From positions 2,773,001 to 2,837,000 of the forward strand of contig NZ_CP124535.1 in assembly GCF_029953595.1 (NCBI RefSeq): a stretch of 64,000 nt of DNA, in the 5' to 3' direction. The translations under genes were made by a program, and so were the position numbers. This DNA is from Fuscovulum ytuae (GTDB lineage Bacteria > Pseudomonadota > Alphaproteobacteria > Rhodobacterales > Rhodobacteraceae). The notes below the pieces were generated by a model that had not been told where the DNA came from, did not search any database, and saw nothing but the letters and a program-made list of their open reading frames with translations. Below are positions 10,676 through 64,000 of this stretch, piece by piece (within the stretch, counting starts at the first letter, position 1; each line of letters begins with the position of its first letter).

Positions 10676-10727
10676 GGGGTGGAGTGTAAGGGGGGATGGG
10701 ATGCGGGGGAAGTGGGGGATAGGAGAG

Positions 10728-10815
10728 ACCCCGCGCCCCGGGGCCTGACCCGAGGCACCGGCCAAAGCTTTAATCAGGATTTGCCGGAGGTCCGGGGTCA
10801 GGCCCGGGACGGGGT
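10728..10815. repeat. Long imperfect inverted repeat upstream of the BrkB gene
   Basis: Arms at 10728-10751 and 10795-10815 share CGGGCCTGACCC and its complement plus flanking CCCCG, around a 43-nt loop. The structure sits between the BrkB gene and the MarR gene. It could be a read-through-limiting hairpin or a degenerate mobile repeat. No coding sequence is seen in the 185-bp gap. Confidence 0.5.
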
Positions 10816-10842
10816 TTTCTGGCGACGGGTGATAGGCCGGAT

Positions 10843-10860
10843 GGCGGGGTGAACCCCGCC
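10843..10860 (-). terminator. Hairpin immediately after the MarR gene
   Basis: GGCGGGGT and ACCCCGCC form a perfect 8-bp stem around a 2-nt loop directly at the stop codon of the MarR-family gene. A T-rich tract is lacking, so termination strength is uncertain. Confidence 0.4.
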
Positions 10861-46225: not shown

Positions 46226-46241
46226 GTGGACCTCCCTTTGG

Positions 46242-47048
46242 TCATTTGCCCGAACCGGCGGTGTCAGACCCGCCGCGGGTGAGGTAATAGGCGATGAGGA
46301 TGGGGACGAAGGTGGCGAGGAAGACGACGATGGCGACGACGTTCGTCACGGGACGTTGCCGGGGGCGGACCAGTTCCTGAAGCATCCAGATGGGCAGGGT
46401 GCTTTGCTGGCCTGCGGTGAAGGTGGTGACGATCACCTCGTCAAAGGACAGCGCGAAGGCGAGCATGCCGCCTGCAAGCAGGGCCGTGCCGAGGTTCGGC
46501 AGCAGGACATAGCGGAAGGTCTGAAAGCTGTTGGCACCGAGGTCGGCCGAGGCCTCCAAGATACCGCCGGACAGGCGGCGGAAGCGGGCGACGGCGTTGT
46601 TATAGACGATCACGATGCAGAAGGTCGCGTGGCCGAGGATGATGGTCCATGTCGAAAAGGGGATGTCCATGATCGAGAAGGCCGACCGCAGCGACATGCC
46701 GGTGATGACGCCGGGCAGCGCGATGGGCAGGATGATGAGAAGGCTGATCTGTTCGCGTCCGAAAAAGGACGTGCGGGCCATGGCGGCAGAGACGAGGGTA
46801 CCGAGGATCATGGCAAGGAAGGTCGCGATGGTGGCGACCCAGAGCGACAGGTAAAGGGGCGGCCAGATATCGGCACGGTTCCATGCCACGCCGAACCATT
46901 GGGTGGTCAGGCCGGGGGGCGGGAATTGATAGGATTTGTCCTCGGTTGTGAAGGCATAGAGGAAGATCAGCAGGATCGGCAAATGCAGGAACAGTAGCCC
47001 GCCGATGGCTGCGATCTTCAGGCCGAGGGAGGCGCGGTCAGAGTGCAT
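46242..47048 (-). CDS. potI: Spermidine/putrescine ABC transporter permease PotI-like
   Basis: The 268-residue inner-membrane protein has six predicted membrane helices and the binding-protein-dependent permease EAA segment [20 protein letters not shown], which contacts the ATPase. It overlaps the first permease gene by 11 bp. Together with that gene it should form the polyamine permease dimer. The start is ATG and the length is normal for PotC/PotI. It is followed 16 bp later by the aldehyde dehydrogenase gene. Confidence 0.88.
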
Positions 47049-47978
47049 CGAAGGCCCCCTTCCGCTTTGCGATCATCAGGTAGATCAGCATGATCACGAT
47101 CGGGACCACGGCGAAGGCGGCGGCGAGAGGGATGTTCCCGGCGGTGCCCTGCAACTGATAGACCGCCAGCCCGATGAAGCGGGCCGAGGTGCCGACGATC
47201 TGCGGGATGATGTAGTCCCCCATGGTCAGCGAGAAGGTGAAGATCGACCCTGCGATCACCCCCGGCATGGCAAGCGGCAGGATCACGCTGCGGAAGGTTT
47301 GCGCCCGTGACGCGCCAAGGTCGGCGGATGCCTCAAGCATCGAATTGGGCACGCGTTCCAGTGACGCCTGCATGGGCAGGATCATATAGGGCAGCCAGAC
47401 ATAGACGAAGACGATGAAGGTGCCCAATGGGCTGGTGGAGAGACTGTTTCCGCCAATGGCGGGTATGGCGAGGATGGCGTTCAGGATCATCGACAGGCCC
47501 ACGCCTTCGGCGGCCCAGGTGATGATGCCTTCCTTGGCAAGGATCAGTTTCCACGCATAGACCTTGACGAGGTAGGACGACCAGAGGGGCAGCATCACGC
47601 CAAGGTAGAAGACGGCCTTCCATTTGCCGCGCGCGAAGCGGGCGGCGTAATAGGCGATGGGGAAGGCGATCACCGCGCAGCCGATGGTGACGGCGGCAGA
47701 CATCACAAGCGTGCGGATGATGATATCAAGGTTCTGGGCGCGGAAGAGTTCGGCATAGGTCTTGAGGGTGAATTCCTCTTTCACAACGCCGGAGAATTCG
47801 TCGATCGAATAGAAGGATTGCAGCAAGAGCGCCGCGAGAGAGCCGAGGTAGACCGCGCCAAGCCAAAGCAGAGGCGGGGTAAGCAGGACCACCAGCAAGA
47901 GGCGTGGGCGACGCCAGAAAAGCGCGGTCAGCCTGTCGGCAAGCCCGCGTTCGGGCAGGATGGCGGGGGTGGGGGAGG

Positions 47979-47982
<4 letters not shown>
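47038..47982 (-). CDS. potH: Spermidine/putrescine ABC transporter permease PotH-like
   Basis: The 314-residue inner-membrane permease has at least six hydrophobic segments ([20 protein letters not shown] near the N-terminus) and the EAA loop [20 protein letters not shown]. It resembles PotB/PotH. The ATG used overlaps the stop of the ATPase gene (ATGA). An upstream in-frame extension runs through the ATPase gene and is rejected. The overlap of 11 bp with the next permease gene indicates tight coupling in the operon. Confidence 0.88.
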
Positions 47983-48986
<1,004 letters not shown>

Positions 48987-49021
48987 GAAGGGGCAGGCCT
49001 CGACAGGCAAAACAGGACGGG

Positions 49022-49047
49022 AGGGTGCGCGCGGGAACGCGCACCCT
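49022..49047 (-). terminator. Hairpin between binding-protein and ATPase genes of the polyamine operon
   Basis: AGGGTGCGCG pairs with CGCGCACCCT across a 6-nt loop, a perfect 10-bp stem without U tract. It probably stabilises the upstream binding-protein mRNA or gives partial termination. Confidence 0.6.
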
Positions 49048-49070
49048 GTTTGGGTCGGAAAGGGGGCCGG

Positions 49071-50234
49071 TCAGCGGCCGCCGATCACGCCGATATAGTC
49101 AGACACCCAGCGGTAATAGGGCACACAGGTATCTTCGCCCTGCGAGCAGTCGGCGACCGGGGTGGTCCAGAAGCGGATCTTTTCAAAATCGTCCAGACCG
49201 TTGGCGGTGCAGCCTTCTGCCGTCTGCATGCCGCGCCCATCGGTGCAGGCGGCGGGAACCGACGGGTTCGCGCCGAACCAGACCGAGAGGTCGGATTGCA
49301 GGTTCGAGGCAAGCTGATGTTCGAACCACATATAGGCGCAGTTCGGATGTTCGCTGTCGGCATGCAGCATGGTGGTATCGGCCCAGCCAGTGGCACCTTC
49401 CTGCGGGATGACAGAGGCGACAGGCGCGCCACCGGCCTTGAGCAGGTTCACTTGGAATGGCCATGACCCGGAGGCGACCACGCCCTCATTCTTGAAATCG
49501 TCGATCTGGATGAAGGCGTCATGCCAGTAGCGGCTGACCAGTTCACGCTGCCCGCGTAGCAGATCCAGCGCGGCCTTGTATTGATCTTCGTTCAGTTCAT
49601 AGGGCGAGGTGATGCCAAGTTCCGGCTTGTGGAACATCAGGTATTGCGCGGCATCGGCAACGTGGATTGGTCCGTCATAGGCCTGCACGCGGCCCTTGTT
49701 CGATTGGCCATCCGACAGGGTCATTTCTTCAAAGACGACGTTCCAGCTGGTCGGCGGTTCCTTGAACACCTCGGTGTTGTACATCAGGACGTTCGGCCCC
49801 CACATGTACGGCACGCCATAATGCTTGCCGTCCACGGTGTGCCAAGGCGCGTCCTGAAGGCGGGGGTCGATGGTGGACCAAGACGGAATCAGGTCCTTGT
49901 TGATTTCCTGCACACGTCCACCCGCGATCAGGCGGAGCGAGGCGTCGCCCGAGGCGGTGACAAGGTCAAAACCGCCTTCGTTCATCAGGGCAACCATCTC
50001 GTCCGAGGTGTTCGCCGTCTTCACGCTGACTTTGCAGCCAGAGGATTCTTCGAATTTCGTGACCCAGTCGAAGGCCGGGTCGGTTTCGCCGCGTTCGATA
50101 TAGCCCGCCCATGCAACGATGGAGAGTTCGCCTTCGCCGGGGCCGATTTCGGTCATTTGGGCAAGGGCGGGGCTAAGGCCGGTGATCAGGGCGAGGGCTG
50201 TGGTGGCGGCAAGCTTCAGGCTGCGTGTGGTCAT
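49071..50234 (-). CDS. potF: Putrescine/spermidine-binding periplasmic protein PotF-like
   Basis: The 387-residue protein has a signal peptide (residues 1-25, LKLAATTALALITGLSPALA). A type II periplasmic-binding fold of the PotD/PotF family follows: GELSIVAWAGYIERGETDPA near the N-terminus, DLVTASGDASLRLIAGGRVQ, YGVPYMWGPNVLMYNTEVF and a C-terminal region with ANGLDDFEKIRFW. The Trp in AWAGY and the Asp in the ASGDAS segment correspond to polyamine-binding positions in the family (recollection, not aligned). It is the first gene of the operon. The intergenic region upstream is treated separately. Confidence 0.9.
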   Translation of the reverse strand: MTTRSLKLAATTALALITGLSPALAQMTEIGPGEGELSIVAWAGYIERGETDPAFDWVTKFEESSGCKVSVKTANTSDEMVALMNEGGFDLVTASGDASLRLIAGGRVQEINKDLIPSWSTIDPRLQDAPWHTVDGKHYGVPYMWGPNVLMYNTEVFKEPPTSWNVVFEEMTLSDGQSNKGRVQAYDGPIHVADAAQYLMFHKPELGITSPYELNEDQYKAALDLLRGQRELVSRYWHDAFIQIDDFKNEGVVASGSWPFQVNLLKAGGAPVASVIPQEGATGWADTTMLHADSEHPNCAYMWFEHQLASNLQSDLSVWFGANPSVPAACTDGRGMQTAEGCTANGLDDFEKIRFWTTPVADCSQGEDTCVPYYRWVSDYIGVIGGR

Positions 50235-51131: not shown

Positions 51132-51893
51132 CTACGCCGCCTCCGCGCCCCCCTTCACGCCCGTGATGTAGGAAACGATATCGTTCCCGTCCGTCTCGTC
51201 CTTTCGCAGTGAAGCCACGATCCGCCCGCGCCGGAAGACCACGATCCGGTCAACCAGATCGAAGACCTGCCGCAAGTTGTGCGAAATCAGGATCAGTGGC
51301 ACGCCCCGGTCCTTGAGCCCGCGGATGATGTTCTCGACCTGCGCAGTCTCTTGAACGCCCAAGGCTGCCGTCGGTTCGTCCATGATCACCAGTTTCGATG
51401 CGAAAGCTGCCGTCCGCGCGATGGACACACATTGCCGCTGACCGCCCGACATATTGCGGATCGGGTTGTCCACGTTCGGGATTTTCACCGCCGTCGTTTT
51501 CAGCGCCTCCAGCGTCCGTTCCCGCATCGCCTTGCGGTCAAGGATGGAGAAGGGCCCCAGACGAAACTTGAACAGTTCCCGCCCAAGGAACAGGTTCGAG
51601 GGCACGTCCAGATCATCGGCTAGGGCCAACGTCTGGAACACCGTCTCGATCCCCGCCTCGCGCGCCTCAAGCGGACCTGTGAAATGCACGGGACGGCCAT
51701 CGAAGAGGATATCCCCGGCCGTCCGCTGTTCAACCGCTGTGACCTGGCGGACGAACGTGGATTTGCCCGCCCCGTTATCGCCCACCACGGCGACATGTTC
51801 GCCCTCATGCAGGACGAAATTCGCATCCTCCAGCGCATGCACGCCACCGTAATGCTTGGTAAGGCCCCGCGTTTCCAGAATGATCTTTGACAT
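51132..51893 (-). CDS. Sugar/cyclitol ABC transporter ATP-binding protein (single-domain, FrcA/MocB-operon type)
   Basis: The 253-residue ATPase has Walker A VVGDNGAGKSTFVRQ, signature NMSGGQRQCVSIARTA, Walker B LVIMDEPTAALGVQETAQ and the H-loop ISHNLRQVFDLVDR. Only one ATPase domain is present, unlike the duplicated RbsA-type; it should work as a homodimer with the permease. The ATG giving MSKIILETRGLTKHYGG is used, 5 bp downstream of the permease stop. It is the last gene of the importer operon. Substrate is inferred from the whole cluster. Confidence 0.88.
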   Translation of the reverse strand: MSKIILETRGLTKHYGGVHALEDANFVLHEGEHVAVVGDNGAGKSTFVRQVTAVEQRTAGDILFDGRPVHFTGPLEAREAGIETVFQTLALADDLDVPSNLFLGRELFKFRLGPFSILDRKAMRERTLEALKTTAVKIPNVDNPIRNMSGGQRQCVSIARTAAFASKLVIMDEPTAALGVQETAQVENIIRGLKDRGVPLILISHNLRQVFDLVDRIVVFRRGRIVASLRKDETDGNDIVSYITGVKGGAEAA

Positions 51894-51898
51894 CCCGC

Positions 51899-53011
51899 TC
51901 ACCCCCGTGCCCTTGCGCGTTGCCGCCACTGGTCCAGAACCACGGCGCCCACGATGATCGCGCCCTTGACCATTTCTTGGTAATAGGCATCCAGCCGGAT
52001 CGACGTGAAGCCCGAGATGATCACCGAAAAGATCGCAGCGCCCAGCACTGTGCCAAGGATGGACCCGCGCCCACCAGCCAGCGACACGCCCCCGATCACC
52101 GCCATGGCGATGGCGTCCAGCTCATACATCACACCCATCCCGGCCTGGGCCGTCAGGTTCTTTGATGTCAGCAGAACCGCCGCCACCGCCGCCAGCATCC
52201 CGGCAATTGCGTAGACCAGAACCTTGTGCTGATCGACATTGATGCCCGACATCCGCGCCGCCGCCTCATTCGACCCGATGGCATAGCTGCGCTTGCCGTA
52301 AAGCGTGTATTTCATGATCAGGTGGAACAGCACGGCAAGGATGACGAAGATCACCGCCGGGTTCTGCCCCTGCCAGCTGAACAGGCCAAAAGTCAGACCT
52401 CCCAGCAAATCGCCATTGGCAAGGTTGCCATAGGTTTCGGTCGGAAAACTTACCGGTTGACCGTTCGACCACCAACGCGCCACGCCGCGCGCCGATACCA
52501 TCATCCCCAGCGTGGCGATGAAGGGCGGGATGCGCGTATAGGCCACCAGCAAACCGTTCACGAGGCCGGCCAGCAACCCGCAAGCAAGTCCGACCGCGAT
52601 CGGCACGATCACCGGGAGGTCCATCGCCCAGTCGCCAAAGATTGCCTTCGGGTTCGGATTGCCATTCACCATCGCCGTTTGCGCAAAGCTCATCACGATC
52701 ATCGCCGTCGCCCCGACGACTGACCCCGATGACAGGTCGATCCCGCCGATGATGATGACCTGCGTCACGCCGATGGCGATGATCCCGATGATGGCCACCT
52801 GCAAGATCATGATATCCAGCCGCTGCTGGTTAAAGATCGCATCCACGTTGTCGCGCATGTTGAACAGGAAGGAACCGCCCTGCATGCGGTTCAAGACCTC
52901 GAAGATCACGACGATCAGGATCAGCGCCCCGAAGACATTCCATTCGGGCGCGCGGGTTCGTTTTGACGGATCGTATTTCAGGCCCCCAAGGCCATGGGTC
53001 GCGTCGGCCAC
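51899..53011 (-). CDS. Sugar/cyclitol ABC transporter permease (RbsC/XylH class)
   Basis: The 370-residue inner-membrane permease has many hydrophobic helices and family segments QVIIIGGIDLSSGSVVGATA and FIATLGMMVSARGVARWWSN, with GKRSYAIGSNEAAARMSGIN and AIAMAVIGGVSLAGGRGSIL. The start ATG gives MADATHGLGGLKYDPSKRTR, with a normal soluble N-terminus. It is separated from the binding-protein gene by a hairpin, as in the xyl operon. The pairing with an inositol-type isomerase favours a cyclitol substrate. Confidence 0.88.
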   Translation of the reverse strand: MADATHGLGGLKYDPSKRTRAPEWNVFGALILIVVIFEVLNRMQGGSFLFNMRDNVDAIFNQQRLDIMILQVAIIGIIAIGVTQVIIIGGIDLSSGSVVGATAMIVMSFAQTAMVNGNPNPKAIFGDWAMDLPVIVPIAVGLACGLLAGLVNGLLVAYTRIPPFIATLGMMVSARGVARWWSNGQPVSFPTETYGNLANGDLLGGLTFGLFSWQGQNPAVIFVILAVLFHLIMKYTLYGKRSYAIGSNEAAARMSGINVDQHKVLVYAIAGMLAAVAAVLLTSKNLTAQAGMGVMYELDAIAMAVIGGVSLAGGRGSILGTVLGAAIFSVIISGFTSIRLDAYYQEMVKGAIIVGAVVLDQWRQRARARG

Positions 53012-53072
53012 GGCGTTCTCCCCCCGTTATGATACCTTTTCATCCTGACATATCCGGCTCAGGAATAAAGGA

Positions 53073-53095
53073 GGGCGGCGGTCGGACCGCCGCCC
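53073..53095 (-). terminator. Hairpin between binding-protein and permease genes
   Basis: GGGCGGCGGT pairs with ACCGCCGCCC over a 3-nt loop, a perfect 10-bp stem. Placed directly after the binding-protein stop, it probably limits read-through or protects the upstream mRNA. Confidence 0.6.
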
Positions 53096-53114
53096 CCATC
53101 TGCCCATAAAGGGA

Positions 53115-54056
53115 TCAGTTCTTGCTCAGATAGTTTGCGATATTGGCCGGGGTGACCAGTTCGAAGGGCACATAGACCTTCTGATCCACCGTCTCACCGG
53201 CCGCCAGCTTCACCGCTGCATCCAGCGCGCCGCCGCCCTGTGCTGCCGCGTTCTGGAACACGGTGATGTCCAACTCGCCCGCCTGCATCGAGGCCAGCGC
53301 ATCCTGCGTCGCGTCCACGCCCGACACGATGACCGACGCCATGTCGATGCCCGCCGCCTTCATCGCCTGGATCGCACCAAGTGCCATCTCGTCGTTGTTG
53401 GCGAGGACGCCGTCAAAGGCGGCACCGGTCGACAGCCAGTTTGTCATCAGGTTCTGCGCCTGATCGCGCGACCAGTTGGCGGTCTGCTGGTCGATCACAT
53501 TGACTTTCACGGCGCATTCGCCCGCTTCCATCACGTCATAGTAGTTCTGGGTGCGCTGCACGGCGGCTTGGTTCGACAGCTCGCCCTGCATGACATAGAC
53601 GCTCACATCGGTCTTGCCCGCAGCGGCCCACTGGTTGCACTGCTCGATAAAGCCCTGACGCGAGGACTCGGATTCGTTCGACGCCACGAAGGCCTGATTG
53701 TCGGGCAGGCTGTCCACGTTGATCGGCTGGCGGTTCACATAGACAAGCGGCACGCCAGCGGCGGCTGCCGCATCGGTCATCGCCTGCGTGGCCGAGGTGT
53801 CGACCGGGTTCACGATGATCGCATCCACGCCATTGGCGATGAAGTTATTGATCTGGTCCAACTGCTTGGCAACGTCGTTCTGTGCGTCTTCAATCTGCAC
53901 GGAAAGGCCCGCCGCATCGGCCTGTGCCTGGATGCCGTTGCGCAGCACGGTCAGGAAGTTGTCGTCAAACAGCGCCATCGACACGCCAATCCCGTCGGCC
54001 ATGGCGGTGCTGCCCATCAGCGAGATGAAGCCCGCGGCGATCAAGGTCTTTTTCAT
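53115..54056 (-). CDS. Sugar/cyclitol-binding periplasmic protein (MocB/RbsB-like)
   Basis: The 313-residue protein has a signal peptide (LIAAGFISLMGSTAMADG) and a type I periplasmic-binding fold. Family segments are IGVSMALFDDNFLTVLRNGI, IANGVDAIIVNPVDTSATQA and SGVDATQDALASMQAGELDI. The last resembles the hinge/loop region of ribose- and inositol-binding proteins such as IbpA and of the rhizopine-binding protein MocB. Substrate identity is not certain. It is the second gene of the operon, downstream of the IolI-like isomerase. Confidence 0.85.
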   Translation of the reverse strand: MKKTLIAAGFISLMGSTAMADGIGVSMALFDDNFLTVLRNGIQAQADAAGLSVQIEDAQNDVAKQLDQINNFIANGVDAIIVNPVDTSATQAMTDAAAAAGVPLVYVNRQPINVDSLPDNQAFVASNESESSRQGFIEQCNQWAAAGKTDVSVYVMQGELSNQAAVQRTQNYYDVMEAGECAVKVNVIDQQTANWSRDQAQNLMTNWLSTGAAFDGVLANNDEMALGAIQAMKAAGIDMASVIVSGVDATQDALASMQAGELDITVFQNAAAQGGGALDAAVKLAAGETVDQKVYVPFELVTPANIANYLSKN

Positions 54057-54139
54057 TGGTTCTCTCCTCCACTGTCGGTGTCCGGCACACCGTTCTCCCT
54101 GCCGGACCGCCCCTGTTTTCCGGGCGGTATTTCGTCCGT

Positions 54140-54946
54140 TCAGGCCTCCACGCCGGAACGGATGAATTTCATCGAGGCCGCCAGCGCGGACCGCGGATTA
54201 TCAAGGTCATGGACCTGTGGTGCAAAGGGTTCATAGCTGATCGGCCCTTCATATCCCGCCCGTCGCAACGCGCGGATTTGCGCCACGTTTCCCAGCACGT
54301 CATCGGCATCGACCAGCACGCGATGCGGATCGCGCATGTCGTCCAGCGGGATCATGTCCTTCACGCCGGAAACATGGACGATCCCCGTCAGATCTGGATA
54401 GATCGGCCCAAAGCCTGCCAGCGCGTGGTGGAAGGTATCATGCACCATGAAATAGGTGCCCACGCCCCCCACGGCATCGATCGCATCGGCCAGAACATCC
54501 TTGTAGCGCAGCGAGCAGACGGCAAAGCCCAAGGGCTCTACCATCGCCTTCAACCCGTGGGCGCGCAGCATTGGCAGGATCTCCCGCAGCGCGGTTTCTG
54601 TCACCTTGCGGCTTTCTCCCCCTTCCGTCGCCACGCCATCGTTCCGCGGGATCAGGCTCACGGCCTCGGCCCCCGCTGCGACCGCAACCTTCATCAGCGC
54701 GTCGGCCTCCGCCGCCTTGGCGTCGGACCAGTCGTTGAACATCTTGACTTCGGCAAGCGCGAGAAAGCGCAAACCCCGCGCCTTCACCGCCGCGCCGACC
54801 TCCGCCGGGTCGGCCCCTCCGAAGAGCGGGCCGGGCAGGTCGTTGCGATATTCGACGCCCACACAGCCAAGCCCTGCGGCAAGATCGGCAAATGCTTCCC
54901 ACCCCAGCTTCGGGGCCGTCATGTGGTTCAGCGCGAAGGGCAGCAT
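54140..54946 (-). CDS. TIM-barrel isomerase, IolI/MocC-like
   Basis: The 268-residue protein is a xylose-isomerase-like TIM barrel of the AP endonuclease 2 family. GWEAFADLAAGLGCVGVEYR near the N-terminus and the metal-site-like segments MVHDTFHHALAGFGPIYPDL (His/Asp) and VHVSGVKDMIPLDDMRDPHR are characteristic of 2-keto-myo-inositol isomerase (IolI) and hydroxypyruvate isomerase relatives. The ATG MLPFALNHMTAPKLGWEAF is chosen; a GTG 15 codons earlier, preceded by GGGAAGACA, is a possible alternative. It is the first gene of the importer operon, and its promoter region carries two inverted repeats. Confidence 0.78.
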   Translation of the reverse strand: MLPFALNHMTAPKLGWEAFADLAAGLGCVGVEYRNDLPGPLFGGADPAEVGAAVKARGLRFLALAEVKMFNDWSDAKAAEADALMKVAVAAGAEAVSLIPRNDGVATEGGESRKVTETALREILPMLRAHGLKAMVEPLGFAVCSLRYKDVLADAIDAVGGVGTYFMVHDTFHHALAGFGPIYPDLTGIVHVSGVKDMIPLDDMRDPHRVLVDADDVLGNVAQIRALRRAGYEGPISYEPFAPQVHDLDNPRSALAASMKFIRSGVEA

Positions 54947-55013
54947 TCCGTGGTTTTCCTCGATCACAGGCAGTGCGCCTAACGGCCTCACTGTCTTCCC
55001 GACCCCAGAATAA

Positions 55014-55108
55014 TGGAATTTTCATTCCACAAAAGAGAATTTTTGACGATCCCGTTCCTTGGGAAAAGATCGCTTGGCATTCTGGCAGAAAATGACGAAT
55101 TTTCGTCA
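55014..55108. promoter_or_regulatory. Promoter/operator region between the isomerase gene and the LacI gene
   Basis: Two perfect inverted repeats occur: TGGAAT/ATTCCA (55014-55029) and TGACGA/TCGTCA (55093-55108, sequence TGACGAATTTTCGTCA). The second shares its half-site with the LacI gene's own upstream region (56286-56319), so it is probably a LacI-family operator. The region is AT-rich relative to surroundings, in keeping with a promoter for the isomerase-importer operon. Confidence 0.6.
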
Positions 55109-55154
55109 AGCCCGCGCATTTTGCATCGCGACCAAGGCTGGACGGGACCGTTCG

Positions 55155-55191
55155 CTGCGTGCCCACAGTTTGCTGCACAGAATGCGGCACA
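55155..55191 (-). repeat. Dispersed 37-bp intergenic repeat, copy 3
   Basis: This is the minus-strand copy of the motif seen at 4271-4307, differing at one of 37 positions. A second, partial unit (TGTGCCGCATTC) follows directly at 55192-55203, giving a short tandem. It lies between the LacI operator and the LacI gene end. Confidence 0.8.
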
Positions 55192-55238
55192 GAATGCGGC
55201 ACAGCCGATTCTGCTCTCATCTCGGCCAGTGTTTGCTT

Positions 55239-56270
55239 TTAGATCGATTCCGCGACGTGCAATTGCATCGGCAGGAACACCTGCCCGGCCCCGACGTTGC
55301 CCCTGTCGCGCACCGCCCGCTGCATCAGGGCCAGCACCTCGCGGCACAGGTCGGGCAGCGGCGTCGCATCGACCATCGTTACCCAGCCTTGCGCCAGTGC
55401 CGCGCGGGACTCGGCGGTCACTTCGTTCACGACCAGCGCCACATCCCCCGGCCGACGGGATTGCTGCAAGGCGGCAATCGCCCCTTCCATACCGCCGCCT
55501 GCAACGAACATTCCGCGCAAATCGGGATGGCGGCTCAACAGGTTGAGCGTTGTCTCATAGGTCAATTGGCGCGTTTCAAGGTTCACGACCGTCTCTAGCA
55601 CCTCTAGGTCAGGGCGCTCCTCGCGCAGATAGGCGCGAAAGCCCGTCTCGCGCAGATCATGCCCATGCCAACGCGCGCCCCCAACGAAAATGGCCACTTT
55701 TCCCGCGCCCTTTGCCGAAAGCGAGATCATCCAAGCCGCCGTCCGGCCGACCTTTAGGTTGTTGAGCCCGACATACCCCGCCCTTACACCTTGCGCGAAA
55801 TCCGACAGGAGCGAAAAAACCGCGACACCTTCGGCCTTAAGGTCTTCTACAGCTGCCGTGATCTCTGGATGGTTCACCGCTGTTGCGGCAATCACATCGC
55901 AGCGCCCCGCCATCCCCCGGATCAAGCCCGCCACTTCGTTCGGCGATTGGCTGGCGGCGAACTCCAGAACAAGTTGCCCCTTCACCCCGGGCAATTGCGC
56001 CACCGCCGCGCGGAACTCGCGTGCCATGTTCTGATAGAACTCCTGCCCCTGCTTGTGCAGCAGCACCCCAAAGCGGATTGTCGTGACCGCCCGCGGCCCA
56101 TCCCCCACCAGCCGCGCCGCCGCCGGATGCCCGATCCGCAATGCCGCCTCAAGCACCGCAGCGCGAGTCGCCGCGGCAACCGCCTCACGACCGTTCAGCA
56201 AACGGTCAACGGTCGCCACTGAAACCCCAGCCGCTGCCGCCAGTGCCGCCATGCCCGGACGCCTTGCCAT
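55239..56270 (-). CDS. LacI-family transcriptional regulator
   Basis: The 343-residue protein has the N-terminal LacI helix-turn-helix MAALAAAAGVSVATVDRLLN and hinge GREAVAAATRAAVLEAALRI. A periplasmic-binding-protein-like effector domain follows from residue 60. The HTH reads VATVDRLLNG rather than the usual VSTVSRVLNG, a variation seen in some inositol/sugar regulators. It is transcribed in the same direction as the importer operon and lies upstream of it. Shared TGACGAAAA half-sites in its own upstream region and in that of the isomerase operon suggest autoregulation plus control of the importer. The effector is probably the transported compound (inference). Confidence 0.88.
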   Translation of the reverse strand: MARRPGMAALAAAAGVSVATVDRLLNGREAVAAATRAAVLEAALRIGHPAAARLVGDGPRAVTTIRFGVLLHKQGQEFYQNMAREFRAAVAQLPGVKGQLVLEFAASQSPNEVAGLIRGMAGRCDVIAATAVNHPEITAAVEDLKAEGVAVFSLLSDFAQGVRAGYVGLNNLKVGRTAAWMISLSAKGAGKVAIFVGGARWHGHDLRETGFRAYLREERPDLEVLETVVNLETRQLTYETTLNLLSRHPDLRGMFVAGGGMEGAIAALQQSRRPGDVALVVNEVTAESRAALAQGWVTMVDATPLPDLCREVLALMQRAVRDRGNVGAGQVFLPMQLHVAESI

Positions 56271-56285
56271 GCTTCACCTGATGTT

Positions 56286-56319
56286 TTTTCGTCAAACGCG
56301 AGCATAACTATGACGAAAA
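56286..56319. promoter_or_regulatory. Probable LacI operator in the lacI-desaturase intergenic region
   Basis: TTTTCGTCA (56286-56294) and TGACGAAAA (56311-56319) form an inverted pair with a 16-nt spacer in the 148-bp region between the LacI gene and the divergent desaturase operon. The same half-site occurs at 55093-55108. This would put the oxygenase operon and the importer operon under one repressor. Confidence 0.6.
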
Positions 56320-56418
56320 TTTTGGAACGTCCAGCTTTCCATCTTTCAACTTTCGGAACGATCATTCTACCTTGGATAAAAGCTCGCAGGCAGTGCGCTC
56401 GTTGCTGGAGGGATGGAA

Positions 56419-57513
56419 ATGGCAAAAAGAGATTACAGCCTTCTTGGCCCGGATGGCGCCCGCGCTGTTGAAACCGGGCTGGCGGCGGCAGAGTGGTACC
56501 ACACGGATATACCCCGCAAGGTAATGAAAGAATTGATGCAGCGGTCGGACGCGCCGGCCATCCGCGACACGATCCTTCTTTACGGCTGCATGGTCGCTTT
56601 CGCGGCGGGTGGCATTGCCCTGTGGGGGACGTGGTGGTGTGTGCCTTTCTGGCTGGCCTATGGGGTGCTTTACGGGTCTGCGTCGGATTCTCGTTGGCAT
56701 GAATGCGGGCATGGCACGGCCTTCCGCACGCCGTGGATGAACAACGCCGTCTATGAAATCGCGTCGTTCATGATCATGCGCAATTCCGCCACATGGCGGT
56801 GGAGCCATGCCCGCCACCACACCGACACCTATATCGTGGGCCGCGACCCGGAAATCGCGATCATGCGCCCGCCCGCCTTCGTCAAGCTGATCGGCAGCTT
56901 CTTTGGCATCCCCGAGGTGATCGATTTCGTCCCCCGGATGATCCGCAACGCCTTTACTGGCCCAACGGCAGAGGAACGCACCTTCGTTCCACAATCCGAA
57001 TGGGGCAAGGTGCAGCGCGTGGCACTGATCTATTGCGCGATCTATGCCGTGACCCTTGGGGTGGCGGTCTGGATGGGCTCCATCCTACCGCTTATGGTGA
57101 TTGGTCTGCCGCGCATTTATGGCGCATGGCACCACGTCATGACGGGCCTGTTGCAACATGGTGGTTTGGCCGACAACGTCATTGATCATCGGTTGAACAG
57201 CCGGACGGTCTATATGAACCCGATCAGCCGCTTCATCTATTGGAACATGAACTACCATGTGGAACACCACATGTTCCCGATGGTTCCCTATCACGCGCTG
57301 CCGCGCCTGCATGAGGTCATCAAGCACGATCTGCCCGCGCCCAACCGATCCATCGCCGAAGCCTTTGCCGAGATGTGGCCTGCCCTGCGGCGGCAGCTGG
57401 CCTATGAGGATTATTTCCTGAAGCGCGATCTTCCCCCCACTGCAAAACCCTATCGCGAGGATTTTCATAGGGCCGCCCTTGGCGACCTGCCCGATGCCCT
57501 GCCTGCCGAGTAA
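56419..57513 (+). CDS. Membrane diiron fatty-acid-desaturase-fold oxygenase (MocD-like)
   Basis: The 364-residue integral membrane protein has the three histidine boxes of membrane diiron enzymes: HECGHGT (about residues 94-100), HARHHT (130-135) and HVEHHM (280-285), with hydrophobic helices between them. The family includes desaturases and hydroxylases; MocD of rhizopine catabolism in Sinorhizobium belongs here. ATG at this position has GGAGG with 7-nt spacing; an ATG two codons earlier would lie too close. It is cotranscribed with a Rieske ferredoxin, the usual electron donor, and opposite a LacI gene. The rhizopine link is inference from its neighbours; other substrates are possible. Confidence 0.85.
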   Translation: MAKRDYSLLGPDGARAVETGLAAAEWYHTDIPRKVMKELMQRSDAPAIRDTILLYGCMVAFAAGGIALWGTWWCVPFWLAYGVLYGSASDSRWHECGHGTAFRTPWMNNAVYEIASFMIMRNSATWRWSHARHHTDTYIVGRDPEIAIMRPPAFVKLIGSFFGIPEVIDFVPRMIRNAFTGPTAEERTFVPQSEWGKVQRVALIYCAIYAVTLGVAVWMGSILPLMVIGLPRIYGAWHHVMTGLLQHGGLADNVIDHRLNSRTVYMNPISRFIYWNMNYHVEHHMFPMVPYHALPRLHEVIKHDLPAPNRSIAEAFAEMWPALRRQLAYEDYFLKRDLPPTAKPYREDFHRAALGDLPDALPAE

Positions 57514-57523
57514 GGAAGACACG

Positions 57524-57838
57524 ATGCCCCAATGGATTCGCGCCTGCGCCACCGATGATGTGGACGAAGAAGACCTGATCCGCTTTGACCATGGTGGCGC
57601 CACCTATGCCATCTACCATTCCCCCGAAGGCGAGTTCTTTGCCACGGCCGGCCTTTGCACGCATGAGAATGTGCATCTCTGCGACGGGCTGGTGATGGGC
57701 CACCTGATCGAATGCCCGAAGCATAACGGCCAGTTCGATTATCGCACAGGCGAAGCGAAGCGCGCGCCCGTCTGCGTCAAGCTTCAAACCTTCCCCGTGA
57801 AGGTCGACGGTTCCGACGTCTATATCGAGGTGCCCTGA
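57524..57838 (+). CDS. Rieske-type 2Fe-2S ferredoxin (MocE family)
   Basis: The 104-residue protein has the Rieske cluster motif CTHENVHLCDGLVMGHLIEC then PKHNG, that is C-x-H and C-x-x-H. It is the predicted electron donor to the neighbouring diiron oxygenase. It lacks any export signal and so is cytoplasmic. The stop overlaps the next start by one base (TGATG), indicating coupling. The reductase (MocF equivalent) that would feed electrons is not in the window. MocE annotation follows family similarity known to me for MocE-type ferredoxins. Confidence 0.9.
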   Translation: MPQWIRACATDDVDEEDLIRFDHGGATYAIYHSPEGEFFATAGLCTHENVHLCDGLVMGHLIECPKHNGQFDYRTGEAKRAPVCVKLQTFPVKVDGSDVYIEVP

Positions 57839-58638
57839 TGGCTGCCCGCCTGACCGTCCGCGACCTTCTGGACCAACGCGGCAAGCACCAATTCGCGATG
57901 CTGCGTGTCGAAACGCTGGAAGAGGCCGAGGCGGCCGAAAAGGCCGGAGTGGAACTTCTCTCGGTCCCGCCTGCCATGATCATGGACCGCCGCTTTCGTG
58001 AGGTGGCACCCACCGCCTTTGCTTTTCCCGGCGACAATTTCTACGAAATCGGGGATACCGGCGATTTCCTGAAATGGGCCTTTCCGCTTTATAAGCATGG
58101 GGCGGACGGCTTCTATTGCTCTGGCTCGCTTCGGACCATCCGCGCGATGGCTGAGCATGGCCTGCCGGTCTGCGGCCATGTGGGGCTCATTCCGTCGAAA
58201 CGCACTTGGACCGGTGGGTTCAAGGCGGTGGGTAAGACACTGGAAACGGCGCAACTTGTCTGGCGACAAATCAGGGCGCTGGAAGAGGCGGGTGCCTTCG
58301 CGGCTGAAATTGAGGTCGTGCCCTTTGCGATCACCAAGGCCATCGCGGAACGGACGAACCTTTTCCTGATCTCGATGGGGGCTGGCCCGGCGGGCCATGC
58401 GCAATATCTGTTCACCGATGATGTTTTGGGCCAGAACCGTGGCCATATCCCGCGCCATGCGAAGGTCTATGCCGATTTCGCAACCGAACAGGACAGGCTT
58501 CAAGCCATGCGCGTCACGGCGATGTCGGCCTTCGCGGCAGATGTCCATGGTGGGGCCTATCCGGGGCCAGAGCATCTGGTCGCCAGTGAGGCAGACGTCG
58601 TCGCCACATTTCGTGATTGGCTGGATCAGGAAGCCTGA
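57838..58638 (+). CDS. PanB-like (ketopantoate hydroxymethyltransferase family) protein with altered metal site
   Basis: The 266-residue TIM-barrel protein matches PanB in the segments GLPVCGHVGLIPSKRTWTGG and the region EIEVVPFAITKAIAERTNLF, which keeps the catalytic-type Glu (residue 159). In PanB Mg is held by Asp in GDSLGMV, Asp in LADLPF and Glu in KIEGG. Here the first reads VPPAMIM, the third YCSGS, and only the second (PGDNF) may be retained. It therefore probably does not make ketopantoate in the normal way. A one-carbon or aldol reaction linked to the adjacent oxygenase is conceivable. Translational overlap with the Rieske gene argues for a common pathway. Confidence 0.75.
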   Translation: MAARLTVRDLLDQRGKHQFAMLRVETLEEAEAAEKAGVELLSVPPAMIMDRRFREVAPTAFAFPGDNFYEIGDTGDFLKWAFPLYKHGADGFYCSGSLRTIRAMAEHGLPVCGHVGLIPSKRTWTGGFKAVGKTLETAQLVWRQIRALEEAGAFAAEIEVVPFAITKAIAERTNLFLISMGAGPAGHAQYLFTDDVLGQNRGHIPRHAKVYADFATEQDRLQAMRVTAMSAFAADVHGGAYPGPEHLVASEADVVATFRDWLDQEA

Positions 58639-59382: not shown

Positions 59383-62300
59383 ATGACTGTTCTTTGGGGC
59401 CTTGACGGCACAGAGCCGACCCTCGTCGAAACCGGATTGAATGCGCCCACGGGTGGAGCGCTTTTTGCGGCGGCGGATAGTGGCGGGGCCGAGGTGGCCG
59501 TGGCCTATGTGAAAGACGGGCTGTTGACCGTCGAGTTCCTTGATGAGCAGGCGCAGGCATCGGCGGCGCGGCCACGCACGGTGCTTACCCCGGAAGGTTT
59601 GACGCTGAGCGAGGTAGAGGCTGCGGCATCTGGTGTGGTTGGTTTCGCAGTGGGCTGGGCGGATGCGTCCGGCGGCGATGCGATGAACGCCTCGCTCTCG
59701 GCGCAATATTTCGGGCTGTCCGGTCCATATGGCACAACGATTTCGATCGGCACGGGCCATGATCTGGAGATTGCCGGATATGAGTTGCTGGATACCGCAG
59801 GCAAGAAGCCGGTGGCTGATGGTTTCGAAGCGGCATGGATCGATGGCGGTGTGGTGAAGTTTCAGCGCTATGCCGTCTGGCTGGACCTGAAGAAGGACCC
59901 ATTGGGTGCTGTTGAGCCGGTGGGCCGGGATGGCGTGTCCGGCACGCCGCGCCCCGTGTCGGACCCGAAATCTACACCGCCTGCGAACACCGACGCTGCG
60001 GCAGAGACGATCTTTTCGGCGGGTGGAGTGGCGACAGATGTGTCGCTGACCGTGACACATGATGGCGAAAGCGCGCTGGCTTGGGTCGAAACGTCGGGGC
60101 TGGGTGAGACCTCGGTCAGGTTGATGGTCCTGAACCGGGATGGATCGGCAAACGCGTCGATCCATGGCGCGGGTGGCGCGCCGGTGACGGTAGATGCGAC
60201 GGATATCCCGGAGGGGGCGCATGTCGAAACGGCATGGCTTGCGGCGGGTGGTTTTGTCGTCGCGTGGTCGCAGGGCAGCGAGGTGCATGCGCGGGTCTAT
60301 AGTGCCACGGGCGGGACACCCGGCACGGCGGCAACTTTTGCCGCCGGACCGGAGGTCACCTTGGTGGATGCGGGCGGAGCATTCGATGGCGCGTTCAGCC
60401 TGACCACGATGCTGGAGGATATTGGCGGGTTCACCCTTTCCTTCACCCAAGGCGCAGATGTGAAGGCGATGTCCTTCAATGCGGCGGCAGGGCCGATGGA
60501 TGCGGCCCCCGTCACAATCGCCACAGCAGCGGATGGTTCCGCTATTGCGACCGCCAGCCTTGCCGGCGAACGCGTTCTGGTTCTGTCAGAGGCGGGCGGC
60601 GGCATCCAATCGGCCATCATCGATCCGCGCGGTGCGGCGGGGGTTGTGCTGAATGGGGCCGATGCGCCCGGCAAGCCCATAGCGGATATCCTTGTCGGCA
60701 CGGTTGGTGCCGATACGATCGACGGCGGGGCGAGCGACGATATCCTTGACGGTGGGATGGGGGATGACCTGATCCTTGCCGGAGAGGGCAATGACGTGAT
60801 CGATGGCGGTGGCGGTATCGATACGGTGGTCCTGTCAGGTAACCGGGCGGATTATGAACTGACTGATCTGGGGACCGGTCTGTTTCGGATCGTAGACGGG
60901 CGCGGGATTGACGGTGATGATCTGCTGCGTCGGGTCGAGGTGCTGCAATTCGCGGATGACGTCGTCGATCTTGGCGGGGCTGTGGGCGAGGGCCCCTATG
61001 TCACCCCGACAGCGTGGGGCCTGACCGATGCGGATGCCGATCTTCTGCCCGCGACAGAACGGACGCCCGATGTCGATGGCTTCATCGTCAACAGCGATGC
61101 TGCGGCGGATCGAGCGGGATTGCAGTCTGCCCCGGTGGTGTCGGACAACGTGGGTGAGTTCGTCGCCATCCTATGGGAGACGGAGACCGCCGAAGGGTCG
61201 CGCATCCGGGCAAGTTTCTACAATGTGCTAGGTGAACCCGATACAGAGACCCCGTTGCCGGATACGATTTATCTGACAGATGGTCTTGGGGTCGAACGCA
61301 AGCCTGTTGTCGCGGGCGGAGGTGGGGCTTCGGGATGGGGATTTGTCTTTTCCGAAGTGCAGCCGGAAGGGCATGAAATCCTGAAGACCAATTTCCTTGG
61401 GATTGGACTGACGGGGACGGAACAAGCTGTCGATCCCGAGACAGGGATGCATTTCCATGATGCATCGGTTTTCGGGTCTTTCCTTGATCGGCGGCTGGTC
61501 GATGGCGTTGTGGTTGATGCACGACCTGCCGCCATGAATGACGGCTATAATGTCGCCTATCTTGCCAGCGCCATCGCGCCGGATGGCAGTTTCGATCCGG
61601 TCTATGGCGAGGTTCGCCTTCAGCGTTTCGAAGTGCCGCTAAGCCCTGCGGGAGAGCCGGGAACGCCTGTTGCAGGCGGCATCGACGGCATGGCGGGTAT
61701 CCGCGATGGCAGCGTGATCGATGCCTCTGACGATGCGCCCTACGTTTTGGCTGCCAGTGGGCGCAGCCCGTCTGTCACCGCGCTGCATACGTTCGAGACG
61801 GTCGTCGTCTGGATCGAAAGCGTGGAGGGTGTGGAACGTGTCGCGGGCACGGCGATTGACGACATGGGCGGGATCATCCCGGTCGATATGTCCAATATCT
61901 CGGCGGGGGATGCGCTTGTGGCTGAGGCGGGGGTCACCGTCGTCTCGGCTGGGGCTGTGAATGCGGCCGTCGTCTGGGTGGCGATGGTGGACGGCCAACC
62001 CTTGCTGCGTGCGACCATGTATTCGTCGCCCGGCACAGGTTTTGACGGGCAGGGCTTTGACCTTGGGGCTCCGGGTGTCCCCTTCACGCTTATGGACCTT
62101 CCCGCGGGTATCGATCTGGCATCGATCCGGGTGACGGGCATCAGCGGCGAAGATAGCAATGATATCGTTGTGCAGTGGGAAACCGGGACGGGCGATGGGC
62201 GGGATATTTTTGCCCGCCATTTCCAAGTCACGCTTGACCCGGCGACGGGCGTGGCGCTGGCCATGCGGCCCGACGGGGATTCGGTGCAGGTCCATGCCCT

Positions 62301-64000
62301 GCAGGAGGGTGAGCAAGGGCAGGGCAGCGTGGCGGGCCTTCTGGGCGACCGTTTCATCTCGGTCTGGACAGAGAAGAACCCGGCAATCGCCGAAGGCGGG
62401 GCTGATATTGTCGCGCGCATCTTCGATACACGGTCCCCGGGGCAAGAGATCACCGGCGACCTGATCGCCGGGGATGGCCAGCCCAAGGCGCGGCGCGACA
62501 TTCTTGTGGGCACCATCGGCGACGACACGATCCGTGGCGATATCTCGGACGCTGACGGGCTGGTTGACCAGTTGTTCGGCGGAATGGGTGACGATGTTCT
62601 GATCGGCGGGCCGGGGATCAAAGGGGCGGCAGGGTCGCCCGAACTGATCGATGGCGGCTTGGGTCGGGATACGGCGGTCTATTCCGGCAATCTGGCGGAT
62701 TACACGATCACCGCGATCTTTGATCCTTCGGCTGGAGCGGGATTTGAGATCCGCGACAATCGGCCAGAGCAGGACGCGAATGGCGATCCGGTCCAGAATG
62801 ACGGGATCGACAATGTCTTTGGCGTCGAGGTGCTGCAATTCGCCGATGTCACTTTGGAAGTGGCCGAGGATGTTTATGCGCCTCAGGCACCGGAACCGCT
62901 GGCAGGGTGGGATGGCACGCCGACGCCTTGGTCACTGACCGATGAGGGGGTGTCGAAGACCATCGATCTTGGCACCCCGGCTGTTGAAAGCGGGATCGTG
63001 GTGACGAACCTTCAGGACGACGCAGCGATGCTGTGGGTGGCCGATGGCACCCGCCTGATGGCCGTGCGGCAGGATATCACCGGGGTGGTCGATCCGCTTT
63101 GGTCGCTGCCCGGTGGGCCTGCGGGTGCGATCGAGATGACGGATGGCCGTTTCGCCGGAAATGCTGTGTCGCAGGCGGCCGTTGGCATGGCCGGCGGGCT
63201 TGGCTTGATTGGAGCGTGGACCTCGACCGATGTAGGGGGGGAAAGCGCCATCCACCTGCGCTATGGCAGCACGGCGACCGACACGCCCTTTAACAACGGC
63301 GCTGCGGGCTATCCCGCCTATGGTTTTGCCGGAGGCGAGATTGTGGTGATTGGATCGGAAGGCGGCAGCAACGCCTCGGTCAAGGGATACGAAATCGTGG
63401 ATGCCAACAATTCCACGGTCGAAATTGGTTTCCATGTGGCTTTCGTTGTGGGTGGAGAGATCCGCCTCGCGCGGTATGAAATCCCGGTCTATGACGTCGA
63501 CCCGGTAACGGGGGCACGGATTGCTGCATCGACCTCTGATAGTTTCGGCAGGGGTGCCGAGACGGAGCCGCGCCTTCTGAACGTGGATGGCACGCGCGCC
63601 TTTGATGACCTTGGCGCGCAGGTGGATGCCGGGGCGGATGCGGTGCGGGTGATGGGTGTGGGCGCGCAGCCGACACTGGCCACGCTGCATGATGGCGAAT
63701 TGGTGCTGGCGCATGTCGATGCGACCGGCCAGTTGGCGGTTCAGGTGATCGAGCTTGTCACGGATGCCGGAGCAGATCGCGGTGGCGCGGCGGGAAGCGT
63801 GACGACCTATGATTATGCTGGGGCCGAGAGCTTTGCCTTCGGAGCTGGGGTCGGACAGGGCATGGTCGTGGCGCAGCAGAACGGCAGCTTTGCCGTGTTC
63901 TGGACGGAAGGCGCAGGCGAGCAGGTGGTGAAGGCCGTGATCTTCACCGGGGCTGTCCCGTCGGCGGAACTGGTTCTTGGCAGCATCCCAGCGGGGGCCA
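59383..64000 (+). CDS. Giant RTX-type calcium-binding secreted protein (3' end cut)
   Basis: The frame is open from this ATG to the right edge (1539 codons) and continues beyond it. There is no N-terminal signal peptide, as expected for type I secretion. RTX nonapeptides are seen at about residues 440-490 (GADTIDGGASDDILDGGMGD, then EGNDVIDGGGGIDT) and again at about 1043-1110 (GDDTIRGD, then GGMGDDVLIGG). Each is followed by a VEVLQFADD/VEVLQFADV closing segment. The modules between them are beta-rich, with repeated WVADG/AWVETSG-like strands. Expected partners are a type I ABC/MFP pair, not seen here. Possible roles are adhesin, biofilm matrix protein or S-layer-like protein; the sequence alone does not decide. 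Confidence 0.88.
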   Translation, partial: MTVLWGLDGTEPTLVETGLNAPTGGALFAAADSGGAEVAVAYVKDGLLTVEFLDEQAQASAARPRTVLTPEGLTLSEVEAAASGVVGFAVGWADASGGDAMNASLSAQYFGLSGPYGTTISIGTGHDLEIAGYELLDTAGKKPVADGFEAAWIDGGVVKFQRYAVWLDLKKDPLGAVEPVGRDGVSGTPRPVSDPKSTPPANTDAAAETIFSAGGVATDVSLTVTHDGESALAWVETSGLGETSVRLMVLNRDGSANASIHGAGGAPVTVDATDIPEGAHVETAWLAAGGFVVAWSQGSEVHARVYSATGGTPGTAATFAAGPEVTLVDAGGAFDGAFSLTTMLEDIGGFTLSFTQGADVKAMSFNAAAGPMDAAPVTIATAADGSAIATASLAGERVLVLSEAGGGIQSAIIDPRGAAGVVLNGADAPGKPIADILVGTVGADTIDGGASDDILDGGMGDDLILAGEGNDVIDGGGGIDTVVLSGNRADYELTDLGTGLFRIVDGRGIDGDDLLRRVEVLQFADDVVDLGGAVGEGPYVTPTAWGLTDADADLLPATERTPDVDGFIVNSDAAADRAGLQSAPVVSDNVGEFVAILWETETAEGSRIRASFYNVLGEPDTETPLPDTIYLTDGLGVERKPVVAGGGGASGWGFVFSEVQPEGHEILKTNFLGIGLTGTEQAVDPETGMHFHDASVFGSFLDRRLVDGVVVDARPAAMNDGYNVAYLASAIAPDGSFDPVYGEVRLQRFEVPLSPAGEPGTPVAGGIDGMAGIRDGSVIDASDDAPYVLAASGRSPSVTALHTFETVVVWIESVEGVERVAGTAIDDMGGIIPVDMSNISAGDALVAEAGVTVVSAGAVNAAVVWVAMVDGQPLLRATMYSSPGTGFDGQGFDLGAPGVPFTLMDLPAGIDLASIRVTGISGEDSNDIVVQWETGTGDGRDIFARHFQVTLDPATGVALAMRPDGDSVQVHALQEGEQGQGSVAGLLGDRFISVWTEKNPAIAEGGADIVARIFDTRSPGQEITGDLIAGDGQPKARRDILVGTIGDDTIRGDISDADGLVDQLFGGMGDDVLIGGPGIKGAAGSPELIDGGLGRDTAVYSGNLADYTITAIFDPSAGAGFEIRDNRPEQDANGDPVQNDGIDNVFGVEVLQFADVTLEVAEDVYAPQAPEPLAGWDGTPTPWSLTDEGVSKTIDLGTPAVESGIVVTNLQDDAAMLWVADGTRLMAVRQDITGVVDPLWSLPGGPAGAIEMTDGRFAGNAVSQAAVGMAGGLGLIGAWTSTDVGGESAIHLRYGSTATDTPFNNGAAGYPAYGFAGGEIVVIGSEGGSNASVKGYEIVDANNSTVEIGFHVAFVVGGEIRLARYEIPVYDVDPVTGARIAASTSDSFGRGAETEPRLLNVDGTRAFDDLGAQVDAGADAVRVMGVGAQPTLATLHDGELVLAHVDATGQLAVQVIELVTDAGADRGGAAGSVTTYDYAGAESFAFGAGVGQGMVVAQQNGSFAVFWTEGAGEQVVKAVIFTGAVPSAELVLGSIPAGA

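Follow-up and report, generated by a model that had tools for sequence, protein, structure and literature searches.

The 64,000-nucleotide stretch analyzed here (the window; bases 2773001 to 2837000 of contig C1 in the 4.19-Mb genome of Fuscovulum ytuae) carries a locus with two divergent arms, for which we propose a role in the uptake and demethylation of an O-methylated inositol. The minus-strand arm encodes a LacI-family regulator (55239 to 56270, with a start at 56270 or 56219; Pfam LacI and Peripla_BP_4), an IolI-type, xylose-isomerase-like triose-phosphate isomerase (TIM) barrel protein that is a candidate inosose isomerase (54140 to 54991; AP_endonuc_2, 67 bits), a MocB-like periplasmic binding protein (53115 to 54056; Peripla_BP_4, 162 bits), an RbsC-like CUT2 permease (51899 to 53011; Pfam BPD_transp_2, 155 bits), and an RbsA-like CUT2 ABC ATPase (51132 to 51929; Pfam ABC_tran, 95 bits). 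The plus-strand arm encodes a MocD-like membrane di-iron oxygenase (56413 to 57513; FA_desaturase, 130 bits), a MocE-family Rieske ferredoxin (57524 to 57838; TIGR02377, 164.1 bits against a cutoff of 136.15), and a PanB-like protein, hereafter PanBL (57838 to 58638; a half-length Pantoate_transf match of 114 bits).

All eight genes had been called in a preliminary description made from the letters of the DNA; they stand at the same coordinates, and Pfam and NCBIfam scans agree on their families. Two details needed revision. The MocE family assignment stands, but the gene probably begins at the ATG at 57524, after the desaturase stop codon, and not at 57479 (judged by eye). The isomerase had been called “IolI/MocC-like”; the likeness to IolI holds, whereas that to MocC does not, as the protein in the MocC position of a moc locus is an IolE (TIGR04379, 395 versus 290 bits). 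No MocF-type reductase was found by tblastn of the window, as the description had noted; a MocF homologue with 44% identity is encoded in the same genome, 0.6 Mb from the locus.

The Peripla_BP_4, BPD_transp_2, and ABC ATPase genes of the minus arm form a single run, as in a CUT2 importer. The ATPase is a single-domain protein of 265 residues that differs from the tandem form of about 500 residues, and its top NCBIfam matches are monosaccharide ATPases, under the cutoff. MocD, with histidine boxes at residues 96, 132, and 282, is 70 to 72% identical to MocD of two rhizopine (moc) loci, and MocE is 60 to 62% identical to its moc-locus counterparts. The function ascribed to mocDEF is demethylation.

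Conservation of the layout and occurrence of PanBL in rhizopine loci

PanBL was searched in 149 genomes of the window's family, yielding 59 places, 8 of which were dropped as true PanB (match starting at query residue 69 or later); with these excluded, 32 genomes hold PanBL. In a sample of the phylum, 18 of 398 genomes have it, all within the window's class. For named bacterial genomes we used the best 80 of at least 401 PanBL relatives, and the nearest loci among the matches listed belong to Rhodobacteraceae, for example, Rhodobacter amnigenus and R. kunshanensis (86 to 87%). Some of the loci, numbered with the prefix L below, possibly represent one genome twice, L037 and L086 showing identical identities. 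The divergent order, with LacI and the importer on one side and MocD-MocE-PanBL on the other, is found again in named Rhodobacteraceae and in rhizobia, where a reductase gene is usually added. Because this order recurs, the gene grouping is more than chance.

Within 5 kb on either strand, the 28 PanBL copies of loci L083 to L109 are accompanied by MocD in 26 cases, MocE in 27, a MocB-type protein in 21, and an IolI-type protein in 23. In loci L110 to L162 (n = 53, mostly rhizobia), MocD is present in 50, MocE in 48, and a MocF-type ferredoxin reductase in 25; in most cases the reductase gene separates MocE from PanBL (position -1 in 26 of 27). Across all 134 PanBL copies, MocE was counted 110 times, MocF 32, IolI 44, and MocB 36, and a same-strand oxygenase lies within 5 kb of 118 copies (75 of 88 after dereplication). 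The partners of the 88 are MocD alone (65 copies), a PF04116 fatty-acid-hydroxylase-type di-iron protein alone (7), a Rieske oxygenase with PF04116 (2), and MocD with PF04116 (1). We also placed the copies on a quick PanBL tree, built without bootstrap, that gave long-branch warnings and from which 46 of the 134 were excluded as near-duplicates or short. The PF04116 label changes six times on it by the program's count, which is inflated by missing labels at contig ends, and occupies about four parts of the tree by eye. PanBL is a frequent companion of these oxygenases, in rhizopine loci as well, and is the new element here; a literature search for the desaturase-Rieske-PanB-like gene trio found no matching paper.

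Rhizopine loci are among the places where plasmids carry PanBL. A plasmid search with MocR (E limit, 1e-120) returned 24 plasmids, 14 of them at 80% identity or more and the other 10 below 60%. In all 14 records with a close MocR, to which the count is confined, PanBL lies 2.9 to 3.0 kb beyond the MocR end on the same strand; in 3 of them the match is split in two pieces, and the gene may be broken. The MocR proteins of Sinorhizobium meliloti RCAM1115, Rhizobium leguminosarum A1, and Phyllobacterium zundukense score 757, 751, and 765 bits, respectively, over the cutoff of 650 of the curated rhizopine_MocR model (NF052281), and in each locus MocR is followed by MocD, MocE, a flavin adenine dinucleotide (FAD) reductase, PanBL, and PurU. 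MocD of RCAM1115 is unannotated and was located by tblastn. PanBL in moc loci, annotated as “3-methyl-2-oxobutanoate hydroxymethyltransferase,” is 57 to 58% identical to the window protein. The available sections of PMC10107442 describe mocDEF as a rhizopine-inducible unit, and the terms panB, purU, hydroxymethyl, formaldehyde, and formate are all absent from its main text.

Three side observations concern the distribution of these genes. In L079 and L080, PanBL comes after a gene for a soluble ring-hydroxylating oxygenase of the Rieske type and has a class II aldolase close by (scan for L079, tblastn for L080). PanBL occurs on 270 plasmid records, mostly rhizobial, and 22 of the 24 plasmids with a MocR homologue were typed as conjugative.

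PanBL and its one-carbon neighbors

PanBL fails two curated PanB cutoffs (104.6 versus 272 and 88.3 versus 207.55 bits) and passes the looser Pfam Pantoate_transf cutoff of 28.7. Its AlphaFold2 model has a predicted local distance difference test score (pLDDT) of 90.5; the best 28 Foldseek matches are all PanB, the top one at 1.1e-16, and the fold more distantly resembles the methylisocitrate-lyase group. We aligned 46 members of the PanBL family to the true PanB encoded by the window genome, after removal of three sequences with bad start calls, and assigned columns by what we take to be the E. coli PanB residue numbers (D45, D84, K112, and E114). In all 46 members the counterpart of D84, the second metal-binding Asp of PanB, is Gly, Ala, or Ser, that of K112 is Tyr, Phe, Met, or Ile, and that of E114 is Ser, Ala, Pro, Leu, Gly, or Asn. 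The alignment is poor around the first Asp, D45; acidic residues are absent from this stretch in the window protein, and 30 of the 46 members carry one nearby. The counterparts of H136 and E181 are invariant in the 46, and the model places them at the ends of strands. New invariants of the family are E157 and H207, with R54, D90, and R225 conserved in 45 of 46 and Y93 in 40 of 46. The loss of the counterparts of D84, K112, and E114 makes it unlikely that PanBL, though related to PanB, binds the keto acid of PanB in the known way. A role in pantothenate biosynthesis was rejected, as these key residues are gone and a full-score PanB (356 bits) is encoded elsewhere in the genome.

The genes that follow PanBL point to folate. 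PurU starts within 170 bases after 12 of the 134 copies, two of them contig-end pieces (L147, 41%; L159, 37%); L041 (29%, other strand) was left out of these counts. Six PurU proteins that were scanned all exceed the PurU cutoff, and the six that were compared fall into two types that are 52 to 55% identical; those of the RCAM1115, A1, and P. zundukense moc loci score 330 to 331 against 286 bits. An intact FolD follows PurU in P. zundukense (477 versus 396 bits), R. leguminosarum A1 has a broken copy, and none was recognized in the RCAM1115 moc locus. In L069 a single run comprises MocE, a TIM barrel, MocF, PanBL, FolD (459 versus 396), PurU, and IolG. PurU closes the importer operon in L151 and L156, and in L081 a GcvT-type gene comes after MocE. 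PanBL remains constant as its partner oxygenases, the transporters, and the other enzymes change, a pattern easier to reconcile with a small product common to all than with a single ring compound. The window genome has a formate-tetrahydrofolate ligase, a formate dehydrogenase, and the MocF homologue, from which it would appear to possess a one-carbon route. The joining of formaldehyde and tetrahydrofolate in bacteria is usually regarded as spontaneous. Literature searches joining rhizopine with formyltetrahydrofolate deformylase found no matching paper, and the one match that joins it with hydroxymethyltransferase is a paper on serine hydroxymethyltransferase.

Inositol genes, importer, and regulator

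Several sister loci include a gene of inositol catabolism. In 11 of the 27 loci L083 to L109, the ATPase gene is followed, in the same orientation, by an IolG homologue that is 66 to 100% identical to the L095 copy, and the three that were scanned pass the inositol 2-dehydrogenase cutoff of 355 bits (L091, 417; L095, 427; L109, 416). Homologues with at least 49% identity occur in 22 of the 131 sequences searched, and those of L035, L069, L134, and L182 also pass the cutoff. The window genome has iolB, iolC, iolD, and iolE side by side (L173), all over their cutoffs, and a second iolD (L172) together with IolG (412 versus 355) and IolE (383 versus 290). About 12 kb from the second iolD lies a paralogous PanBL locus, L035, whose PanBL is 18 kb from iolD and which comprises LacI, a PF04116-type protein, an importer, MocE, a TIM barrel, PanBL, and IolG. 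Contig C2 carries the third MocE locus of the genome (L176, G000:C2:7000-26900; 4385 to 12134), with a LacI-like regulator, a PF04116-type oxygenase, an importer, MocE, the C-terminal part of a Gfo/Idh protein, and a TIM barrel; no PanBL was found there.

Over 314 residues, the window binding protein shares 56% identity with the S. meliloti moc-locus protein in the MocB position, a name assigned from the gene order mocCABRDEF. It scores 39 bits against a cutoff of 420 with the NCBI rhizopine binding-protein model, for which the S. meliloti protein itself is unlisted at E 1e-15. Its best solved relative by sequence is 4yo7 (E 1.9e-52), which we take to be a structure holding myo-inositol. The solved relatives of the isomerase are 2q02 and 4hgx, with a weak match to IolI (1i60; E 0.0064). 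The LacI protein is 50% identical to the regulator of the Neorhizobium galegae locus L151. A palindrome, TGACGAATTTTCGTCA, at 55093 to 55108 upstream of the isomerase-importer genes is a weak candidate for its operator, and a degenerate copy with three mismatches, TGATGTTTTTTCGTCA, lies at 56279 to 56294 in the LacI/MocD divergent promoter region. At up to three mismatches the window contains four matches against 0.37 expected, with the site at 55093 counted on both strands and one match (59245) outside the locus. A family-wide LacI operator was rejected, the palindromes of 53 LacI/MocD loci being heterogeneous and many regions having none.

On the minus strand, positions 44780 to 50234 encode a binding protein, a TOBE-domain ATPase, two permeases, and an aldehyde dehydrogenase, which resemble a polyamine-type importer with oxidation and are separate from the locus. 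On the plus strand, an open reading frame of at least 1539 codons with RTX calcium-binding repeats occupies 59383 to 64000.

Proposed pathway, alternatives, and relation to known systems

The sequence shows which genes are present, how they are arranged, and that they are related to moc and iol genes. From this we infer that the locus imports an O-methyl-inositol of the pinitol type and removes its methyl group, and that PanBL takes the one-carbon unit, probably onto tetrahydrofolate; we give this reading a probability of somewhat under 60%. The binding protein and CUT2 transporter would take up the compound. MocD would then hydroxylate the O-CH3 carbon, with electrons supplied via MocE and a reductase encoded elsewhere, and the O-CH2OH hemiacetal or released formaldehyde would pass to PanBL, which would most likely join it to tetrahydrofolate to give 5,10-methylene-tetrahydrofolate. 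This step would be the one-carbon chemistry of PanB reversed, with no keto acid involved. FolD and PurU would finish the one-carbon unit, a task that might fall in the window genome to a reversed formate-tetrahydrofolate ligase and a formate dehydrogenase. The freed inositol would enter the iol pathway via an IolG dehydrogenase, with the IolI-type isomerase acting if the ring is of the chiro series, and LacI would govern both arms.

IolI of Bacillus subtilis interconverts myo- and chiro-series inososes, and the combination of an IolI-type protein with a demethylase points to D-pinitol (3-O-methyl-D-chiro-inositol), which fits best as the substrate. Pinitol and ononitol are widespread in legumes, according to the available part of PMC8730688. 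In Mimosa root exudate, Rhizobium mesoamericanum mocDEF rose 1.5- to 2.1-fold and a mocB homologue 4- to 4.7-fold, iol genes were also upregulated, and pinitol was the most concentrated exudate component listed, at 145 μM (PMC5789663, sections available). Among the literature matches listed, as far as their accessible text goes, we recognized no bacterial gene for demethylating O-methyl inositols.

The preliminary description had proposed that a bacterium that is probably not a rhizobium takes up a methylated inositol-like compound and demethylates it oxidatively. The comparative evidence favors this core proposal, since MocB-, MocD-, and MocE-type proteins are present, some sister loci have an inositol dehydrogenase, and the trio occurs within rhizopine loci. 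The description had also named an observation that would overturn it, namely, that the trio is always found with other pathways such as lipid desaturation; the neighborhood survey did not show this, and the cyclitol demethylation reading is supported by the comparisons.

We further propose, more tentatively and at rather less than even odds, that PanBL is a dedicated carrier of the oxidized methyl carbon (O-CH2OH or formaldehyde) onto tetrahydrofolate. It would then complete the MocDEF-type oxidative O-demethylases as a fourth component so far missing, one that two families of membrane di-iron oxygenases, and possibly a Rieske oxygenase, have in common and that the classical rhizopine loci also contain. 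If these proposals are true, the locus provides candidate genes for methyl-inositol demethylation in Rhodobacteraceae and rhizobia and would account for “mocDEF” genes outside rhizopine loci, and the PanBL family becomes a candidate catcher of the released one-carbon unit. An enzyme joining formaldehyde to tetrahydrofolate would be of general interest.

Among the alternatives, the one that survives best, which we nonetheless consider unlikely, keeps the substrate class and makes PanBL an aldolase or lyase of the PanB-phosphoenolpyruvate (PEP) mutase superfamily that cleaves the oxidized ring, or that condenses formaldehyde with an acceptor other than tetrahydrofolate. The PanB fold with its distant resemblance to the methylisocitrate-lyase group would suit such an enzyme, as would the invariant H136 and E181 counterparts at strand ends, the acidic residue that 30 of the 46 members, the window protein excepted, carry near the first-Asp stretch, and the class II aldolase genes adjoining some divergent PanBL copies. 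However, the D84, K112, and E114 counterparts are gone in all 46 members, the PurU and FolD neighbors suggest folate, and the constancy of PanBL among varying partners fits a common small product better.

It is improbable that the substrate is a rhizopine or another amino-cyclitol and the locus a rhizopine-type catabolic unit outside rhizobia. The relationship of the binding protein to the MocB-position protein and the closeness of MocD and MocE to the moc enzymes would favor it, but S. meliloti MocR, IolE/MocC, and both Gfo/Idh proteins have no tblastn match in the window (E 1e-3), the window has LacI and an IolI-type isomerase instead, and the same layout occurs in many Rhodobacteraceae. In addition, a rhizopine biosensor was tried with myo-inositol, ononitol, pinitol, and other compounds, and the activators reported in the available text are scyllo-inosamine and L-3-O-methyl-scyllo-inosamine (L-3-O-MSI) (PMC6668481). 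On this report, the rhizopine set seems specialized, which fits a separate LacI-type system for non-amino compounds. A rhizopine seems a less likely substrate than an O-methyl-inositol.

A methylated aldose or sugar acid in place of a cyclitol is very improbable. Mesorhizobium-type PanBL operons do contain a DUF4432 gene, presumably mutarotase-like (26 of 124 loci), and a Gfo/Idh dehydrogenase that weakly matches IolG, but window-type loci instead encode a binding protein of the MocB type and, in some of them, an IolG-class dehydrogenase. Lipid desaturation, or a set of unrelated neighbors, can be dismissed: Pfam labels MocD a fatty acid desaturase, and a Delta(10) desaturase model matches it weakly (44.5 versus 500 bits), but its identity to moc MocD speaks against this reading, as does a layout that recurs across Rhodobacteraceae and rhizobia.

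Several observations weigh against the demethylation pathway with PanBL as one-carbon acceptor. We know of no activity for PanBL, and the residues it has lost might reflect a different chemistry. Sixteen of the 134 PanBL copies have no same-strand oxygenase within 5 kb; for seven of them a sequence end is no more than about 2 kb away, but not for L056, L071, L072, L073, and L075. In L065, PanBL adjoins an alpha-amylase gene. Conversely, 16 of the 48 MocE genes in the 149 family genomes lack PanBL within 5 kb. The PF04116 labels cluster on the tree no better than shuffled ones (70 of 500 shuffles as low). IolG is found neither in the window locus nor in its closest relatives (L083 to L090). PurU was not found in the window's genome at E 1e-60, and 1 of 50 PurU genes in its family is near PanBL, so that the folate argument comes mainly from rhizobial loci. 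As for substrate, the authors of the R. mesoamericanum study themselves suggested rhizopine catabolism, in the sections available (PMC5789663), and the mocDEF genes of that strain may be of the LacI or the MocR type. Adjacency of PurU and PanBL as a family-wide rule was rejected for the window's family.

Eight of the 16 MocE places without PanBL were inspected, and in the ten neighbors scanned we recognized no substitute one-carbon enzyme, L180 aside. At L180 (G080:C35, 3055 to 10490), a MocD-MocE pair without PanBL adjoins formate dehydrogenase genes (alpha subunit, 928 versus 666 bits). At L182 (G065:C9, 3558 to 10109), IolG, an importer, IolI, and LacI are divergent from MocE, beside which neither MocD nor PanBL was found.

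Four known systems invite comparison. Like iol catabolism, the locus family has an IolG-type dehydrogenase or IolI-type isomerase in some of its loci, with iolB, iolC, iolD, and iolE elsewhere in the genome; to our knowledge, a demethylating front end is no part of the iol pathway. PanBL shares with PanB (ketopantoate hydroxymethyltransferase) the TIM-barrel fold and the counterparts of E. coli H136 and E181; unlike PanB, it has lost those of D84, K112, E114, and apparently D45, and it scores far under the PanB cutoffs. With the moc locus mocCABRDEF of S. meliloti L5-30 and R. leguminosarum, the window locus has in common the MocD-MocE pair, a MocB-type protein, and PanBL downstream of the oxygenase genes. 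It differs in having LacI in place of MocR, an IolI-type in place of an IolE-type barrel, and its own CUT2 permease and ATPase, and PurU and FolD were not found in it. Because LacI replaces MocR, and neither MocA, MocC, nor a MocF gene in the operon was found, the locus is a moc-like variant and not a moc locus proper. Finally, in the rhizobial clusters of fixV/LacI, a sugar epimerase, and mocDEF described in the accessible part of PMC3538637, LacI is divergent from mocD as in the window and often followed by an AP_endonuc_2 TIM-barrel gene; these clusters are probably the same locus type. “panB” and “hydroxymethyltransferase” have no occurrence in the main text of that paper, and the additions made here are the link to PanBL and the Rhodobacteraceae versions of the locus.

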